NCBI RefSeq assembly: GCF_913776015.1
Contig: NZ_CAJYMD010000066.1
Location: 37,156-101,155 of the forward strand
Direction: 5' to 3'
Source of the DNA: an uncultured Oxalicibacterium sp.
Lineage (GTDB): Bacteria > Pseudomonadota > Gammaproteobacteria > Burkholderiales > Burkholderiaceae_D
Length of the DNA: 64,000 bases
Below, piece by piece: positions 35,248 to 43,679 of the stretch. Under the pieces are notes generated by a model. The model was not told the DNA's origin, did no database searches, and was given only the letters and a program-made list of their open reading frames with translations. Every line of letters starts with the position of its first letter. Position 1 is the stretch's first letter. Position numbers and translations under genes: made by a program.

Positions 35248-35332
35248 GCCCGGGTGGTGAAATTGGTAGACGCAGCGGACTCAAAATCCGCCGCCGCAAG
35301 GCGTGCCGGTTCGATTCCGGCCCCGGGCACCA
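35248..35332 (+). tRNA. tRNA-Leu (anticodon CAA)
   Basis: This 85-base gene has a 7-bp acceptor stem (GCCCGGG/CCCGGGC), the D-loop GGTAGACGCA and the anticodon stem GCGGA/TCCGC around CTCAAAA. It also has a long variable arm typical of tRNA-Leu, a TTCGATT T-loop, and an encoded CCA end. The anticodon CAA reads UUG. It resembles E. coli leuX, a frequent integration site for islands, and the degraded FHA/ParB region follows it. Confidence 0.96.
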
Positions 35333-35881: not shown

Positions 35882-36445
35882 ATAGGCATGAACTTGTCAA
35901 CCTGGAAGCCACCATCGCCTGCCTTGATACCGCTGGTTTCCGTCACCCTGGCGTAGTCGCTGCTGACTTTGCTTTTGCTGTAGCTGATACTGCCTGAGAC
36001 ACCGGCACCAATGGTGATACTGCCACCGACATTCTTTTGTTTGCTGTCGTATTCGCTGGTGTCTTGCAGGCTTTGGATGTTGAGGTCGCCTCCGACATCG
36101 GCAGTGACTTGCTTACCACTGGCGACAGCGCCGATCAGGTTGGCATCTTTGCCTGATACGAGTGCCAGTTGATTCCCTGCGTTGACATGGGTGTTGGTCC
36201 AAGTGACGTCTTTGCCGTCGGCATTGCCGCGACCGGCACTGGCAGGGCAGTGATACGGAATCCGTCCGTACCAAAGCTGATGCCGATACTGCCGCTGCTG
36301 CTTTTGTTGGTGCTGTGTTGTTTAGCGGTACTTTTTGCGGAAAGAAGGTTGATGTTGTTTTCTGCGGCGAAGGTGTAGTCAATGCCCAGCCACTACCGCA
36401 GTTGGTGAAACGGGCTTTCGTTTCGATCAGATTTTTGAAGTCATT
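35882..36445 (-). pseudogene. Displaced, frameshifted filamentous hemagglutinin fragment
   Basis: On the minus strand, a short ORF (MNDFKNLIETKARFTNC) runs out of frame into hemagglutinin-repeat sequence. One frame gives FAAENNINLLSAKSTAKQHS and FGTDGFRITA. After a one-base shift near 36240 the homology continues as ASAGRGNADGKDVTWTNTHV, DLNIQSLQDTSEYDSKQKNV and YSKSKVSSDYARVTETSGIK. It ends at DKFMPIQR with a stop. The final 100 bases are a diverged copy of 37985-38100, the head of the truncated gene upstream. This is a non-functional leftover of an FHA/CdiA locus. Confidence 0.8.
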
Positions 36446-36453
36446 CAAAATTC

Positions 36454-36774
36454 CTATTTACGATCGATTTGATAGGTGTAGCCACGTTGTGACAAACAAG
36501 CCTTCAGTTCTGAAGATTGGCGATGATATGAAGCGTCATCCGTCTCACCAGGAAGCATTCTTTTGACGTGCCAAGAAAAATTACCGTTAGCACTTCCTCC
36601 ACACTCTATCCAATCAACCTTACGTGCCTCGTCTGTCATGGATTGTTTAATCCAATAGTCTCTATAAGGTTTTGGTGGAGATGGCAATTGCGGCACAAAG
36701 CATCCCATGCAGAAACAGCCTTGCAGCAATAAACAGGAAGATATTGTGCTGGCCCAACATAATCCATTCTTCAT
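36454..36774 (-). CDS. Small lipoprotein coupled to the CdiA-like C-terminus (possible immunity protein)
   Basis: This 106-residue protein starts MKNGLCWASTISSCLLLQGC, a lipoprotein signal peptide with the lipobox cysteine at about residue 20. The mature part is small and polar and ends SELKACLSQRGYTYQIDRK. The ATG at 36774 overlaps the stop of the truncated hemagglutinin gene (ATGA). That position is where contact-dependent-inhibition loci encode the immunity protein. I infer a protective role from position and coupling only; no known immunity family is recognised. The track start at 36810 lies within the preceding gene. Confidence 0.65.
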   Translation of the reverse strand: MKNGLCWASTISSCLLLQGCFCMGCFVPQLPSPPKPYRDYWIKQSMTDEARKVDWIECGGSANGNFSWHVKRMLPGETDDASYHRQSSELKACLSQRGYTYQIDRK

Positions 36775-38132
36775 TTTGAAGCCTTTAAAAAAATAGAAAT
36801 GGCGTTCCAAACTTCCGGTGGCAGTAGTTCTGCCGCAGCAAATGGGGCTGATGGAATCAAGGCCAACTCAGATATCCGATCTCGTACAAGGCGCTCCGTA
36901 TCTGACATACCTCGCTTAGTATTCCCTTGTTCATCATATAGTCCTGTTATCTGTCCACCAATGAAGTCGTGCGTGCCTCCAAAAGCTTCGATCAGCTTGT
37001 CTTGCCAACTTCCTGCTGCATACTCATAGCCAAACAATGTTCCTGTCCAACCTTGAATACCTCCCGTTTTTCCTGCTGCTGCCTGACCTTCTGGGGATTG
37101 AAGATACTTATAAAGTGACTTTCCATTCGCCCCCTCTCTCTTCCACTGAATCTTCCCATCCTTTAGAGCGAGAACTTCATTTCCATTCTCATCTTTTTTT
37201 GTGATGCATCGCTCGTTACTCAGTCCACAGATATTATCCAGATCAGCACGTGTCCCTCCTGTTCCCTTTCCATCACCACGTATCCCTGTGCTTTTTCCTT
37301 CTCGGAAATTGCTGAACTCGTCTTCCCCATCGATGATGCCTTTAAATAACAAGGAGTTTTCGATGGCAATTTCACGCATTTTATCTGCGGCTACCGATAA
37401 AGATTCTTTCGTTAATGCAGATGTCCCCATCTCCGTTACGGCGCCAATCAACACATTCATGATGCGCTCTTGCAATAGCAGATCATCAAGCTGCTTTTGA
37501 ATGATGATTTTTTTATCCTCATCCCCACCCTTAGATGCCTCTACAAATGCGTCTCTTAATACCTTTCTTTCACTTTGAACATAATCAGCAACAGCCTTAC
37601 TTGCCTGTTGGCTAAAGGCTTGCGTAATCTGGACCTGTGCATTGATTTCCTTCTGTACTTTCTCCGCATCAAATATCTTCGGAATACCAGCCTCTGCATC
37701 ACCTGTTCGAACATTTTTGTTACCCGCAATACCACTAACACCGGATTGTGTGGTGCTAGCCGAATGCCCCTTATCCGAGCCAACCCCTCCACCACTTATG
37801 TTGGGAACACCTCCTGAACTGCCAGCACCTAACGATATGCCCTTAGCATCAGCCTTGTAATCAGCTTTGTTCTGAATATCGCTGGTGGTGAGGCTGTCTG
37901 TCTGGAGGCTGTTCTTGTTGTCCTGAACAGCTTTCTCCGTACTGGCGATGACCGCACCTTTCAGGTCGGTGTTGCCGCCCACCACAACCTGGAATCCACC
38001 ATCGCCTGCCTTGATACCGCTGGTTTCCGTCACGCTGGCGTAGTCACTGCTGATGTTGCTCTTGCTAAAGTTGAGGCTTCCTGATGCTCCGGTGCTCCAT
38101 GCATAGGTGAAACTACCGCCTACACTTTTTTG
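36771..38132 (-). pseudogene. 5'-truncated FHA/CdiA-like hemagglutinin, C-terminal region intact
   Basis: The frame is open from about 38175, and hemagglutinin homology starts at QKSVGGSFTYAWS (38132). The track begins at an internal GTG (38033). The order is the end of the repeat region (NFSKSNISSDYASVTETSGI, VVVGGNTDLKGAVIASTEK), then a pretoxin-like alpha-helical segment with AIENSLLF, possibly a degenerate VENN motif. The C-terminal domain follows, with KTGGIQGWTGTLFGYEYAAG, GTHDFIGGQITGLYDEQG and a hydrophobic end (SAPFAAAELLPPEVWNAIS). Signal peptide, TPS domain and most of the repeats are missing, so secretion is not possible from this copy. About 450 residues remain. Confidence 0.8.
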
Positions 38133-38194
38133 AAGTGCGCAACATATAGATTCGAGAGTTAAACTAACGCCCCTTCAGATTTTCTCTATTCACT

Positions 38195-39004
38195 ATGAAC
38201 ATCCTCATCAAGGAAGAACTTCGTGCCTACATCGATCCACTGACGGCGGATGAACATGCAGCCCTCGAACGCAGTCTGCTCACCGAAGGTTGTCGCGATG
38301 CACTGGTTTTATGGGGAAACGTTCTGGTAGATGGGCACAATCGTTATGGCATTTGTCAACAACATGGTTTGCCATTCAATACGGTGCAAAACACGCAATT
38401 TCAGTCAATGGACGATGTGTACCTATGGATGATCGACAATCATCTGGGGCGGCGCAGCGTATCGGATTTCCAACGGGGTGTACTCGCATTGCGCAAGAAG
38501 GAAATTCTGTCGCAGCGGCAGGAAGAACTTGCTGTGCCATCGCAAGCTGATACAACAGGGTCGCAAGAAGGAATCGAAAGGCCGAAGAAGGATAGTGTGC
38601 CGTCGCGCGAGTCGATGGCACGTACCGCACGACTCAGCAGTACCACGCTGAACCAGATTGAGAAGATCCAGAAATCTGCCGCGCCGGAACTGGTCAAAGC
38701 GGTCAAGACCGGCACCATTTCAATCAATGCGGCAGCAGCCGTTGCCACTTTGCCTGAAGAAAAACAGGTGGAGGCGGTTGCAGGTGGAAAAAAGGAATTG
38801 CGAGAAGCGGCACGACAGGTACGCCAGGCAAAAGCACCGCGCAAACCTTCCATCGATCTGCCGCCCCTGCCTGAAGATGCCAGCCCTGAGCAAATCGAAA
38901 TTCATCGCTTGCAAAAACTGGTTGCAGAATTGGTGGAAGAACGCGATCAGCTTAAGAAAAAAGTACAGAATCTGACGATTGCATTGAGCGAAGCGCGCGG
39001 CTGA
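38195..39004 (+). CDS. ParB-like N-terminal nuclease/partition-domain protein
   Basis: This 269-residue protein begins MNILIKEELRAYIDPLTADE and has a ParB-N-type core (LVLWGNVLVDGHNRYGICQQHGLPFNTV). A helix-turn-helix-like segment (ESMARTARLSSTTLNQIEKI) and a C-terminal coiled coil (EIHRLQKLVAELVEERDQLKKK) follow. Such orphan ParB-like proteins occur on plasmids, phages and genomic islands. No parA or parS-like repeat is visible nearby. Its upstream region abuts the hemagglutinin truncation point. No ribosome-binding site is obvious. Confidence 0.75.
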   Translation: MNILIKEELRAYIDPLTADEHAALERSLLTEGCRDALVLWGNVLVDGHNRYGICQQHGLPFNTVQNTQFQSMDDVYLWMIDNHLGRRSVSDFQRGVLALRKKEILSQRQEELAVPSQADTTGSQEGIERPKKDSVPSRESMARTARLSSTTLNQIEKIQKSAAPELVKAVKTGTISINAAAAVATLPEEKQVEAVAGGKKELREAARQVRQAKAPRKPSIDLPPLPEDASPEQIEIHRLQKLVAELVEERDQLKKKVQNLTIALSEARG

Positions 39005-39088: not shown

Positions 39089-39565
39089 TTAGCTCTCTTC
39101 GTTTTCTTCCTTACCGTCATCTGCGCGCCCGGCGTTTTGCAACACCTTGCGGATCGTCCCCTGAGAAAACCCGCGCTGCAACAGAAAGCGCATCTGACGC
39201 GCGCGTTCTTTGGGATCGGTTGGTGGGGAACCGAATTTTCTTTGCCAGACTTCCGCAGCGCGTACCGCTTCATCTTCCAGCCCTGTACGTGCATCGTCGA
39301 TCGTCGCGGCATCAAGACCGTGACTCTTTAGTTCGGACAGGATGCGGCTATTGCCGAAACGTGCAGCGCGACGATTGATCAGCGATTCTGAAAAGCGCTG
39401 TTCAGACAGGTAACGCGCTGCTTGCAGCGTATCGAGCAAGGCTTCGATATCGTCGTCTTCCTGTGCGTAGCGTGCCAGTTTGCGACCTAGCTCCTGGCGG
39501 CTGTGTTCGCGTGCAGCCAGATAGCGCAACGCCCGTGCCTTGAGACTCAACTGGATTTTTGCCAT
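39089..39565 (-). CDS. recX: RecX regulatory protein
   Basis: This 158-residue RecA modulator blocks extension of RecA filaments. The family repeats of three-helix units are seen in [43 protein letters not shown] and [20 protein letters not shown]. The ATG has GGAGAG upstream. It lies 62 bp downstream of recA on the same strand, with a hairpin between the two that may reduce its expression. Confidence 0.94.
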
Positions 39566-40854: not shown

Positions 40855-41500
40855 GCACAGCTTGCCGACTGTCGATTTTCAGTTAAATGGGAATTTTGTT
40901 CAGCTAAGTGTGAACTGGTTGTCGATTTTCATTTGGGGCTGAATTTAATCCGCTAACTCAGAGCTATCGCAAATATTTAGGCCGTTTTTGATACGCGAGA
41001 GCGCGTGTACAGTAATTCCATTTACTTACTTGTAGATTTGCTCGCTAAATTGACCCTCTCGAACTGATCCACTTTCCACTGCCTAGCAAAGGCAGCAACG
41101 CGATCGTAAGACCCTTCATAGCCCAGTGCGCATAGATCGATATGCATCTGCTTTAACGACCTTTTTTGTTTGCGCGACTTCGCCGCCTCGGTTTTTAACC
41201 AGGTAGTCAGCTTCAATGCATAGGTATCGAGAGATGTGCTCGATCGCCTGCCAGCATAGGAGGGCTCTATGGTTTCAGCCCTCAAATACCGTCTGACGGT
41301 GTTTCTAGAGATCCCTAATCGTCTTGCGATCTCTCTCAATGAGACCCAGTCACGTAGGTGCCGGCGTCGAACGATTCCAAGTAATGCCACGTCGATAACT
41401 CCATCCCCCCACTAATTTCAGTAAGTGAGAATGTGGCCTATACATTGGTCAGCATTGGGTACAAATTACCCCGTTAAGTGTGTCGGCTTCGGTGCAATCA
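40855..41500 (-). mobile_element. IS21-family insertion sequence remnant
   Basis: The segment carries the 5' part of an istA-type gene and, on the recA side, a 12-bp direct repeat TGTCGATTTTCA (40870 and 40920, exactly 50 bp apart), of the kind found as repeated transposase sites in IS21-type termini. No istB remains. The outer boundaries are estimated; I could not identify matching terminal inverted repeats. Confidence 0.5.
41022..41390 (-). pseudogene. Truncated IS21-family transposase (IstA N-terminus)
   Basis: These 122 residues match the N-terminal part of IstA: a helix-turn-helix (LREIARRLGISRNTVRRYL) and the following linker (RSLKQMHIDLCALGYEGSYDRV, AAFARQWK). The DDE catalytic domain is missing. 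The frame ends after ASKSTSK, so the element is a deletion remnant that cannot transpose on its own. It separates the recA upstream region from the ars operon. Confidence 0.75.
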
Positions 41501-41645
41501 CCATCGGCTAGGCCAATTTGAATGCGGTGAGCTCAATCAGAAACGCGCGGCTGCTTCCATGGGAGCAGTATGTATGTATGGATGATGAAGACATTGCGTT
41601 TGGGAGACCCAAATTTTCCACCATCGCCCTAGGAAGACAGGTTGC

Positions 41646-41674
41646 TTGCATAAATTCAATATTTCAACTAATCT
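41646..41674 (+). promoter_or_regulatory. ars operon promoter
   Basis: TTGCAT and TAATCT are separated by 17 bases upstream of arsR. The first ArsR palindrome overlaps the spacer and the -10. Confidence 0.55.
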
Positions 41675-41704
41675 TGAAATTAATATTTCAAGGATTATTG
41701 AAAT
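41661..41704 (+). promoter_or_regulatory. Tandem ArsR operators upstream of and overlapping the arsR start
   Basis: Two copies of the palindrome ATTTCAA-N6-TTGAAAT occupy 41661-41680 and 41685-41704. They start exactly 24 bp apart. The second covers the ribosome-binding site (AAGGA) and the first two bases of the arsR ATG. The arms match in both copies, while the central six bases differ. Confidence 0.8.
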
Positions 41705-42041
41705 GAACCAAAAATCCGTTGTCGTCGCACTCAGTGCACTGGCGCAGGAAACACGCTTAGCTGTCTTCCGTCTCTTGGTACAGGCAGGCCCTACAGGACT
41801 ATCCGCATCTCTAATTGCGGAAGGTGTGAGCATTGCACCATCCCTACTGTCCTTCCATCTCAAAGAGCTTTTGCATGCTGACTTGGTGACGCAAGTACGC
41901 GAAGGTCGTTCACTCATCTATGCAGCGAACTTCAGCGCGATGAATGGACTGCTTGGATATCTGACCGAGAACTGCTGCGGCGGCAATCCATGCTTCCCCG
42001 ATTCAAAGGTTGCCTGCTCAACGGAAGGCGGCTGCGCGTAA
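41703..42041 (+). CDS. arsR: Arsenic-responsive repressor ArsR
   Basis: This 112-residue ArsR/SmtB-family winged-helix repressor has its recognition helix in SIAPSLLSFHLKELLHADLV and the wing in VREGRSLIYAAN. The C-terminal cysteines C91, C92 and C97 (ENCCGGNPC) form a likely As(III)/Sb(III) site, with two more at 105 and 111. This differs from the alpha-3 helix site of plasmid R773 ArsR and is nearer the C-terminal site of other environmental ArsR proteins. The ATG at 41703 lies within the second operator. It is the first gene of the ars operon. Confidence 0.92.
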   Translation: MNQKSVVVALSALAQETRLAVFRLLVQAGPTGLSASLIAEGVSIAPSLLSFHLKELLHADLVTQVREGRSLIYAANFSAMNGLLGYLTENCCGGNPCFPDSKVACSTEGGCA

Positions 42042-42124
42042 TCAAACGCCATTCACATTCAGTCCACCCTAATTAATCAGCAGCGGGCATCCGCACGCTG
42101 CACTACCCGCCCATAAGGAAAATC

Positions 42125-42631
42125 GTGTCTAACAAGCAGTTCAATATCTTATTTCTTTGTACCGGCAATTCGGCACGTTCCATCATGGCAGAAGCACTCG
42201 TGACGACAATGGGTCATGGATTGTTAAAGGGTTACAGTGCAGGCAGCAATCCCAATGGTGTAGTCAATCCGTTTGCCATTGAACAAGTCAAAAAGACTGG
42301 GTATCCAACGGACAACCTCCGCAGTAAAAGCTGGGATGAGTTCGCTGGCCCTGATGCGCCACATATGGACTTCATCATTACGGTTTGCGACAACGCGGCT
42401 GGCGAAGTATGCCCAATCTGGCCAGGTCATCCATCGTCGGCACATTGGGGATTTCAGGACCCTGCAGCTGTTGAAGGCACTGACGAAGAAAAGCGCGCAG
42501 CCTTTGAGCGCATCTTCAAGCAAATCATGGCTCGCGTGAACGCGTTTGTCAGCCTGCCGCACAACATATTGGAGAAGCACTCCATCCACCAAGAAATACA
42601 GAAGATTGGGGCAACGCCTGTCGCTGGCTAA
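42125..42631 (+). CDS. arsC: Thioredoxin-type arsenate reductase ArsC
   Basis: This 168-residue enzyme of the low-molecular-weight tyrosine-phosphatase fold reduces As(V) to As(III). The P-loop CTGNSARS places the nucleophile at Cys12, and the redox pair C88 and C95 (TVCDNAAGEVCPIWPG) marks the thioredoxin-dependent class. The start is a GTG at 42125 following a GGAAAA site. It sits second in the operon, between arsR and the As(III) exporter, so product is made next to its efflux pump. Confidence 0.94.
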   Translation: MSNKQFNILFLCTGNSARSIMAEALVTTMGHGLLKGYSAGSNPNGVVNPFAIEQVKKTGYPTDNLRSKSWDEFAGPDAPHMDFIITVCDNAAGEVCPIWPGHPSSAHWGFQDPAAVEGTDEEKRAAFERIFKQIMARVNAFVSLPHNILEKHSIHQEIQKIGATPVAG

Positions 42632-42638
42632 GGATGGG

Positions 42639-43679
42639 ATGATGGGAAACTTCGAACGATACCTAACGTTGTGGGTCGGCTTATGCATTGTTGCAGGTGT
42701 CATCCTCGGGAAACTCTTCCCATCCGTGTTTGAGTTCATCGCGCAGCTGGAAGTCGCACAGGTGAATCTGCCTGTTGGACTTCTCATCTGGGTGATGATT
42801 ATTCCAATGCTGGTCAAAATCAACTTCTCGGCACTCTCGCAGGTGAAAAGTCATTGGCGTGGCATCGGCGTAACACTGGTCATCAATTGGCTGATTAAGC
42901 CTTTTTCGATGGCCTTGTTGGGTTGGCTCTTGATTCGGCACGTGTTCGCAGATTGGCTGCCCGCCGACCAGATTGATAGCTATGTTGCCGGACTCATCTT
43001 GCTGGCTGCCGCGCCGTGTACAGCGATGGTGTTTGTGTGGAGTCAGCTATGCAAAGGTGACCCATACTTCACGCTGTCGCAAGTGGCATTGAATGACGCC
43101 ATCATGATGGTGGCATTCGCGCCGTTGGTCGCACTGCTTCTCGGTATAGCATCCATTACCGTGCCGTGGGATACCCTCATCACGTCGGTTGGCTTGTACA
43201 TCATCGTGCCGGTTGTCTTGGCGCAGATGATTCGAAAAGCACTGCTTAAGCAAGGACCTGATGCCTTGGCAAAGGTGAGCCAGCAGTTGGGACCATTCTC
43301 GATAGCGGCGCTGTTATTGACCCTGGTCTTGCTATTTGCATTCCAAGGTGAAGCGATAACCGAACAACCGCTTGTTATCGGCATCCTTGCTATCCCTATC
43401 TTGATTCAGGTCTTCCTGAACTCAGGACTGGCTTACGTATTAAACCGCAAACTTGGTGTAGCGCATTGTGTTGCTGGGCCATCCAGCCTCATTGGCGCAT
43501 CGAACTTCTTCGAGCTATCCGTGGCGACCGCCATTAGCCTCTTCGGCTTCCAATCAGGTGCGGCACTCGCCACCGTGGTCGGTGTACTGATAGAAGTGCC
43601 GGTCATGCTGCTCGTCGTCGGCATCGTCAATCGGTCACAACGTTGGTACGAAGCAGGTATTGCAAGTAATGGGAAATGA
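42639..43679 (+). CDS. acr3: ACR3-family arsenite efflux transporter
   Basis: This 346-residue inner-membrane As(III) exporter has ten expected spans. The conserved ACR3 segments are [20 protein letters not shown], with the essential cysteine in the fourth span, and [18 protein letters not shown] near the C-terminus. The first ATG after AAGGATGGG (42639) is used; the track start at 42546 lies inside arsC. The arsH ATG follows its stop by one base, indicating tight coupling. Confidence 0.94.

Follow-up and report, generated by a model that had tools for sequence, protein, structure and literature searches.

A truncated CdiA-like C-terminal domain with an overlapping lipoprotein gene in Oxalicibacterium: a putative orphan toxin–immunity module

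In contact-dependent inhibition (CDI), the C-terminal region of CdiA waits in the donor periplasm and then passes into the periplasm of the target cell; in the published model the toxin is moved on into the cytosol of the target (PMC9086364). Orphan cdiA-CT/cdiI modules consist of a truncated CdiA homologue that lacks the start and secretion parts but keeps an intact C-terminal domain, with a small gene directly behind it, homology to CdiA repeats upstream and a tandem build; orphan immunity genes persist and multiply without their partner (PMC9086364). The meningococcal tpsC cassettes likewise consist of tpsA pieces truncated at the 5' end, with a small gene (IORF) behind each; for the IORF immediately behind tpsA, immunity was demonstrated (PMC3848433). 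Precedents for a lipoprotein as immunity protein are few in the literature consulted. Imm65, linked to Tox-JAB-1 in a polymorphic toxin system, is the only lipoprotein immunity of its collection (PMC3482391). VgrG2b of the type VI secretion system has a periplasm-acting C-terminal toxin and an envelope-targeted immunity protein, PA0261, whose family members in Enterobacteriaceae are predicted lipoproteins (PMC6899460). BcpO of the Burkholderia bcpAIOB loci is a predicted lipoprotein in a CDI locus (PMC9086364).

The locus described here was found in a 64,000-nucleotide stretch of DNA, the window, and its features are listed in Table 1. It has the truncated CdiA-like piece, the intact C-terminal domain, the small gene directly behind, the upstream repeat homology and the tandem build of the CDI orphan modules; it differs from them in having no VENN or (E/Q)LYN motif, in that the small gene encodes a lipoprotein, and in that the genome holds no parent cdiBA. 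The other likenesses are looser. The tpsC cassettes are likened by description and not by sequence, their tails lie behind a VENN motif, and the word lipoprotein is absent from PMC3848433. Imm65, again compared by description only, acts on a different toxin. VgrG2b is a metallopeptidase delivered by type VI secretion, and no sequence relation of VgrG2b/PA0261 to the window pair was found. BcpO, comparable in description rather than sequence, is an accessory beside a separate immunity gene, bcpI, whereas the window lipoprotein takes the immunity position. We consider the best explanation, at a probability of about two in three, to be an orphan module of the CDI kind, with a predicted toxin of the periplasm or membrane and the lipoprotein as its predicted immunity protein, left over from a TpsB/TpsA locus.

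Table 1. Features of the locus and its flanks (positions in the window)
Feature	Position	Strand	Basis
Open frame, truncated CdiA/FHA-like protein	36771..38171	minus	466 sense codons
Residual FHA-2 repeat part	37686..38130	minus	aligns with FHA-2 regions of full-length TpsA; includes repeat copy 37985-38092
Helical stretch N-terminal to the C-terminal domain	37329..37685	minus	alignments A2/A3 and AlphaFold2 model
C-terminal effector domain, predicted toxin	36771..37328	minus	G..Q.G....Y..G...D...E...G.HD....YD..GN, family alignment A5
Lipoprotein gene, 106 aa, predicted immunity protein	36454..36774	minus	overlaps the domain by ATGA
FHA-2 remnant of a further module, frameshifted, decayed and without its tail	about 35898..36445	minus	DNA-level match to G099 cdiA
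ParB-like plasmid partition-type gene	38195..39004	plus	62.9% identity to Mitsuaria plasmid replication/partition protein
recX, locus flank	39089..39565	minus	synteny with congeners
tRNA-Leu (caa), opposite flank	35248..35332	plus	same flank in G099 and G080

The preliminary description of this DNA had reported an intact C-terminal frame that overlaps a small lipoprotein gene by ATGA, and this is confirmed at 36771-36774 on the minus strand: the TGA of the CdiA-like frame occupies 36773-36771 and the ATG of the lipoprotein starts at 36774, sharing the four letters exactly. Its statement that the N-terminal secretion and repeat region is gone holds for the signal peptide, ESPR, TPS domain and most repeats, but approximately one FHA-2 unit is left. 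The first start codon of the tail frame is GTG at 38033, which would give a protein of 420 aa, and there is none upstream of it. The lipoprotein gene is preceded by AAAGG. Its lipobox reads LLQGC with a non-canonical Gln at -2; Cys20 aligns with a Cys that is invariant in 20 of 20 homologues, in agreement with a signal peptide and lipobox (lipoboxes were called by pattern and not by a trained predictor). Homologues match the tail frame at about 50% identity over its length and the pair, with the same overlap, is seen again in many genomes; the pair is thus more than a chance arrangement. That tail and lipoprotein are non-functional leftovers whose frames have yet to break is very improbable. 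The lost 5' part, the GTG at 38033 as first start and the frameshifted FHA-2 piece next door are what decay would leave, but the tail and lipoprotein carry no frameshift and no stop over about 1.7 kb, against about 550 bp of broken sequence adjoining them. These numbers are small and the pieces may differ in age. Decay concerns the present state of the module and does not contradict its origin from a TpsB/TpsA locus.

The cdiB gene and the secretion part of CdiA are missing at the locus. In the place of cdiB and 5' cdiA lies the ParB-like gene, which is most similar to a plasmid partition gene of Mitsuaria. This gene (38195-39004) adjoins recX, and a plasmid or island possibly delivered it. 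G099, the congener closest in recX identity, has between recX and tRNA-Leu(caa) a complete TpsB (589 aa) and a TpsA with ESPR, TPS and FHA-2 parts and a different C-terminus, followed by two lipoprotein genes; in G080 the same interval holds unrelated genes. Because a complete TpsB–TpsA pair occupies the interval in G099, the window segment is best read as a deletion remnant of such a TpsB/TpsA (CdiB/CdiA-type) locus that has lost cdiB and 5' cdiA. The loss of the 5' part and the arrival of the ParB-like gene may have been one event. Downstream, 108 nt of the second FHA-2 fragment are 86% identical to the upstream FHA-2 copy (37985-38092). The order of repeat, tail, small gene and a repeat that has lost its tail is that of a CDI orphan array. 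The locus thus combines a truncated CdiA-like piece, a small gene linked to the domain in full-length systems, and derivation from a cdiBA locus as indicated by G099 synteny. Elsewhere in the window (41022-43679), a transposase-like ORF, of IS21 type by eye, adjoins an apparent arsenic resistance cluster (ArsR-, ArsC- and Acr3-like ORFs).

The comparison genomes are a sample; of the 295 from the same family, 16 carry the domain, some as weak matches or fragments. Homologues are also found in Methylotenera and Methylobacillus, in further families within the order and the class, and on Enterobacter plasmids. Full-length carriers have TPS and haemagglutinin-repeat domains with the domain at the C-terminus; the gene directly upstream is a confirmed TpsB in G216 and resembles TpsB by eye in G1204. 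Distant members end RHS proteins (RHS core domain in L093, L095 and L096; L097 is alike by eye). In these four RHS proteins a glycine- and alanine-rich hydrophobic stretch precedes the domain. The domain therefore sits at the C-terminus of two unrelated trafficking carriers, TpsA and RHS, as is expected of a modular toxin. The alignment has few invariant residues (G, R, Q, D, G.HD, Y, G, P). Conservation of the domain across genera is good and exceeds what a fast-shuffling toxin would be expected to show. VENN and (E/Q)LYN motifs are absent from the fragment and from all 22 aligned domains; as other motifs are known to replace VENN (PMC9086364), the locus is better called module-like than classical. 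In one genome (WY5.bin77, L003:2193-13721) a full-length FHA-type protein has further FHA-2 pieces behind it that differ in their tails, and one tail contains a GHSRG hydrolase-like stretch; this row is a typical orphan array with other toxins.

Searches of Pfam, NCBIfam, PADLOC and PDB sequences returned no family for either the domain or the lipoprotein. The AlphaFold2 models are fair (pLDDT 84.7 for the domain, 81.8 for the lipoprotein), and with them Foldseek found no significant PDB match; for the domain there was also none in the viral library. The domain is therefore without a known toxin family or fold in Pfam, NCBIfam, PDB sequences and PDB folds. A phospholipase A2-like reading, based on the HD dyad after a Gly-rich stretch, was dropped as no profile match supported it.

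The linkage between domain and lipoprotein was assessed by asking whether a lipoprotein ORF with 80 codons or more starts -5 to +30 nt from the domain end. Such an ORF lies behind 31 of 46 domain ends (25 of the 32 near-complete ones) and behind 2 of 191 control genes, giving p ~1e-24, a value that overstates independence since the sequences are related. The preliminary description had proposed a search for full-length homologues with the same domain and a linked lipoprotein, and these were found: the TpsA proteins of G216, G580, G610 and G1204 are each followed by one. Among the exceptions, a transposase-like ORF follows a broken frame (L089), the lipoprotein has an in-frame stop (L087), or the partner is a very short lipopeptide (first copy in L002, L088). 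In the usual partner family the lipobox Cys is invariant, as are two further Cys (20 of 20), and the mature domain has about 85–125 residues. Behind distant domains the lipoproteins are unlike it, with about 200–230 aa (L090, L096, L099, L101) or 110 aa (L093, L095).

Tails with GTHDTLNS (L002:1-800, L006:8001-8351, L088) are followed by a conserved lipopeptide of 33–34 aa ending in VNGY[KR]GGW. This is the size class of colicin lysis proteins and speaks for the lipoprotein being a release or lysis factor of that kind. Such a role, in place of immunity, is the least probable of the readings, as the usual partner has a mature domain of about 85–125 residues in which Cys residues are invariant and for which the helical model is fair, lysis is not needed for TpsA export, and lipoproteins are retained where the domain is gone. 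Such retention is seen in G151, a congener with a single-contig genome, which has two intact lipoproteins and remnants of a further copy, and the domain only as a 49-aa stub; lipoproteins that outlive the domain fit immunity. The lipoprotein profile alone matched 10 of 246 family genomes, and all ten carry the domain or a stub. In G606 (L082, L083) tails stand in a row, each more truncated than the last and each accompanied by its own lipoprotein from this family; the row resembles silent cassettes.

Domain and lipoprotein diverge together (r 0.78), but the neighbouring region and the lipoprotein do so no less (r 0.83), and this mirror-tree test did not separate co-evolution of the pair from common descent. 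The TpsA of G099 (L120:2568-8909; L133:2528-3466) has a GHSRGG hydrolase-like tail at its end, and a lipoprotein of 313 aa stands behind it. The core of this lipoprotein weakly matches the window lipoprotein family (E 2.4e-6, in a small set). A related core behind a different tail could mean that immunity proteins directed at several envelope-acting toxins have a common ancestor, or that the lipoprotein is an accessory. The accessory role belongs to an alternative in which large adhesins have the domain as a conserved C-terminal element for processing or retention, comparable to the end of the FhaB prodomain, and the lipoprotein serves export or anchoring, as BcpO may do. The conservation of the domain over genera, its lack of a match to known toxin families and the example of BcpO, an accessory lipoprotein in a CDI locus (PMC9086364), are on its side together with the G099 core. 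We regard it as unlikely: the domain is also found at the end of RHS proteins, whose export route is a different one, the lipoproteins persist and multiply where the domain is a stub, and unrelated lipoproteins substitute for each other behind distant domains.

A Cys pair is conserved in 18 of 22 aligned domains and the domain end is hydrophobic. Together with the Cys pair conserved in the lipoprotein, both features agree with a target in the envelope. The same hydrophobic end could insert into the inner membrane, and the cytosol is where CDI tails usually arrive (PMC9086364), so that the domain might instead act in the cytoplasm or inner membrane like a standard CDI toxin, with the lipoprotein neutralising it during passage or serving as a second factor. 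We consider this improbable, since the sole linked small gene encodes a lipoprotein, which is unable to act in the cytosol, and the Cys pairs point to the periplasm.

The proposal of an orphan toxin–immunity module with immunity in the periplasm or membrane is thus strengthened by the lipoprotein linked to full-length TpsA homologues and by the orphan lipoproteins of G151. The anatomy of the locus, the domain family, the linkage, the synteny and the loss of the 5' part are established by these comparisons; we infer the toxicity, immunity and site of action of the pair from sequence. The absent VENN motif, the r of 0.78 against 0.83, the different tail in G099 and the Gln at -2 count against the module. 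In intact systems TpsA, or RHS proteins in other bacteria, would deliver the domain, which would damage the envelope of a neighbour from the periplasm; its biochemical effect is most likely damage to the membrane or cell wall. Were the domain active in the periplasm, donor and kin would need periplasmic immunity, and the lipoprotein, membrane-anchored and facing the periplasm, would provide it by neutralising the domain in producers and their kin. At the window locus, CdiB and the secretion part of CdiA have been lost, with a plasmid-type gene now in their place, leaving an FHA-2 piece, the effector domain, the overlapping lipoprotein gene and a broken FHA-2 piece of a further module. The tail in the window is beyond secretion and may lack translation as well, but the lipoprotein gene, with its own AAAGG, could still confer resistance.

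The source genome is 99.9% complete in 82 contigs and contains no second copy or other homologue of the fragment. The preliminary description had advised looking for another cdiAB locus; the genome encodes two large proteins with a TPS domain, in frames of 3595 and 4714 aa, as well as three TpsB genes (C40, C16, C70; L051-L053), none of them related to the fragment, and the parent cdiBA is absent. As neither TPS-domain protein matches the fragment, both were rejected as recombination acceptors. The suggestion that the module persists as a recombination donor is therefore weak and finds no support in this genome, which has no acceptor cdiA. Protection by the tail and lipoprotein against relatives that carry the full gene is possible.

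The homologues show that domain and lipoprotein form a widespread pair on two delivery proteins, without earlier description in the openly licensed literature, and this points to a toxin of the cell envelope rather than of the cell interior. The domain may plausibly represent an undescribed class of contact-delivered toxins, carried by TpsA and RHS proteins, acting in the periplasm or membrane and neutralised by lipoproteins. The pair, for which there is no family model, can now be searched for behind two unrelated delivery proteins, and the reality of the orphan tail and lipoprotein module can be tested with the intact systems of environmental bacteria. If the domain acts on the envelope, it would widen the target range of contact-dependent inhibition and would explain the banks of small lipoproteins at some loci.
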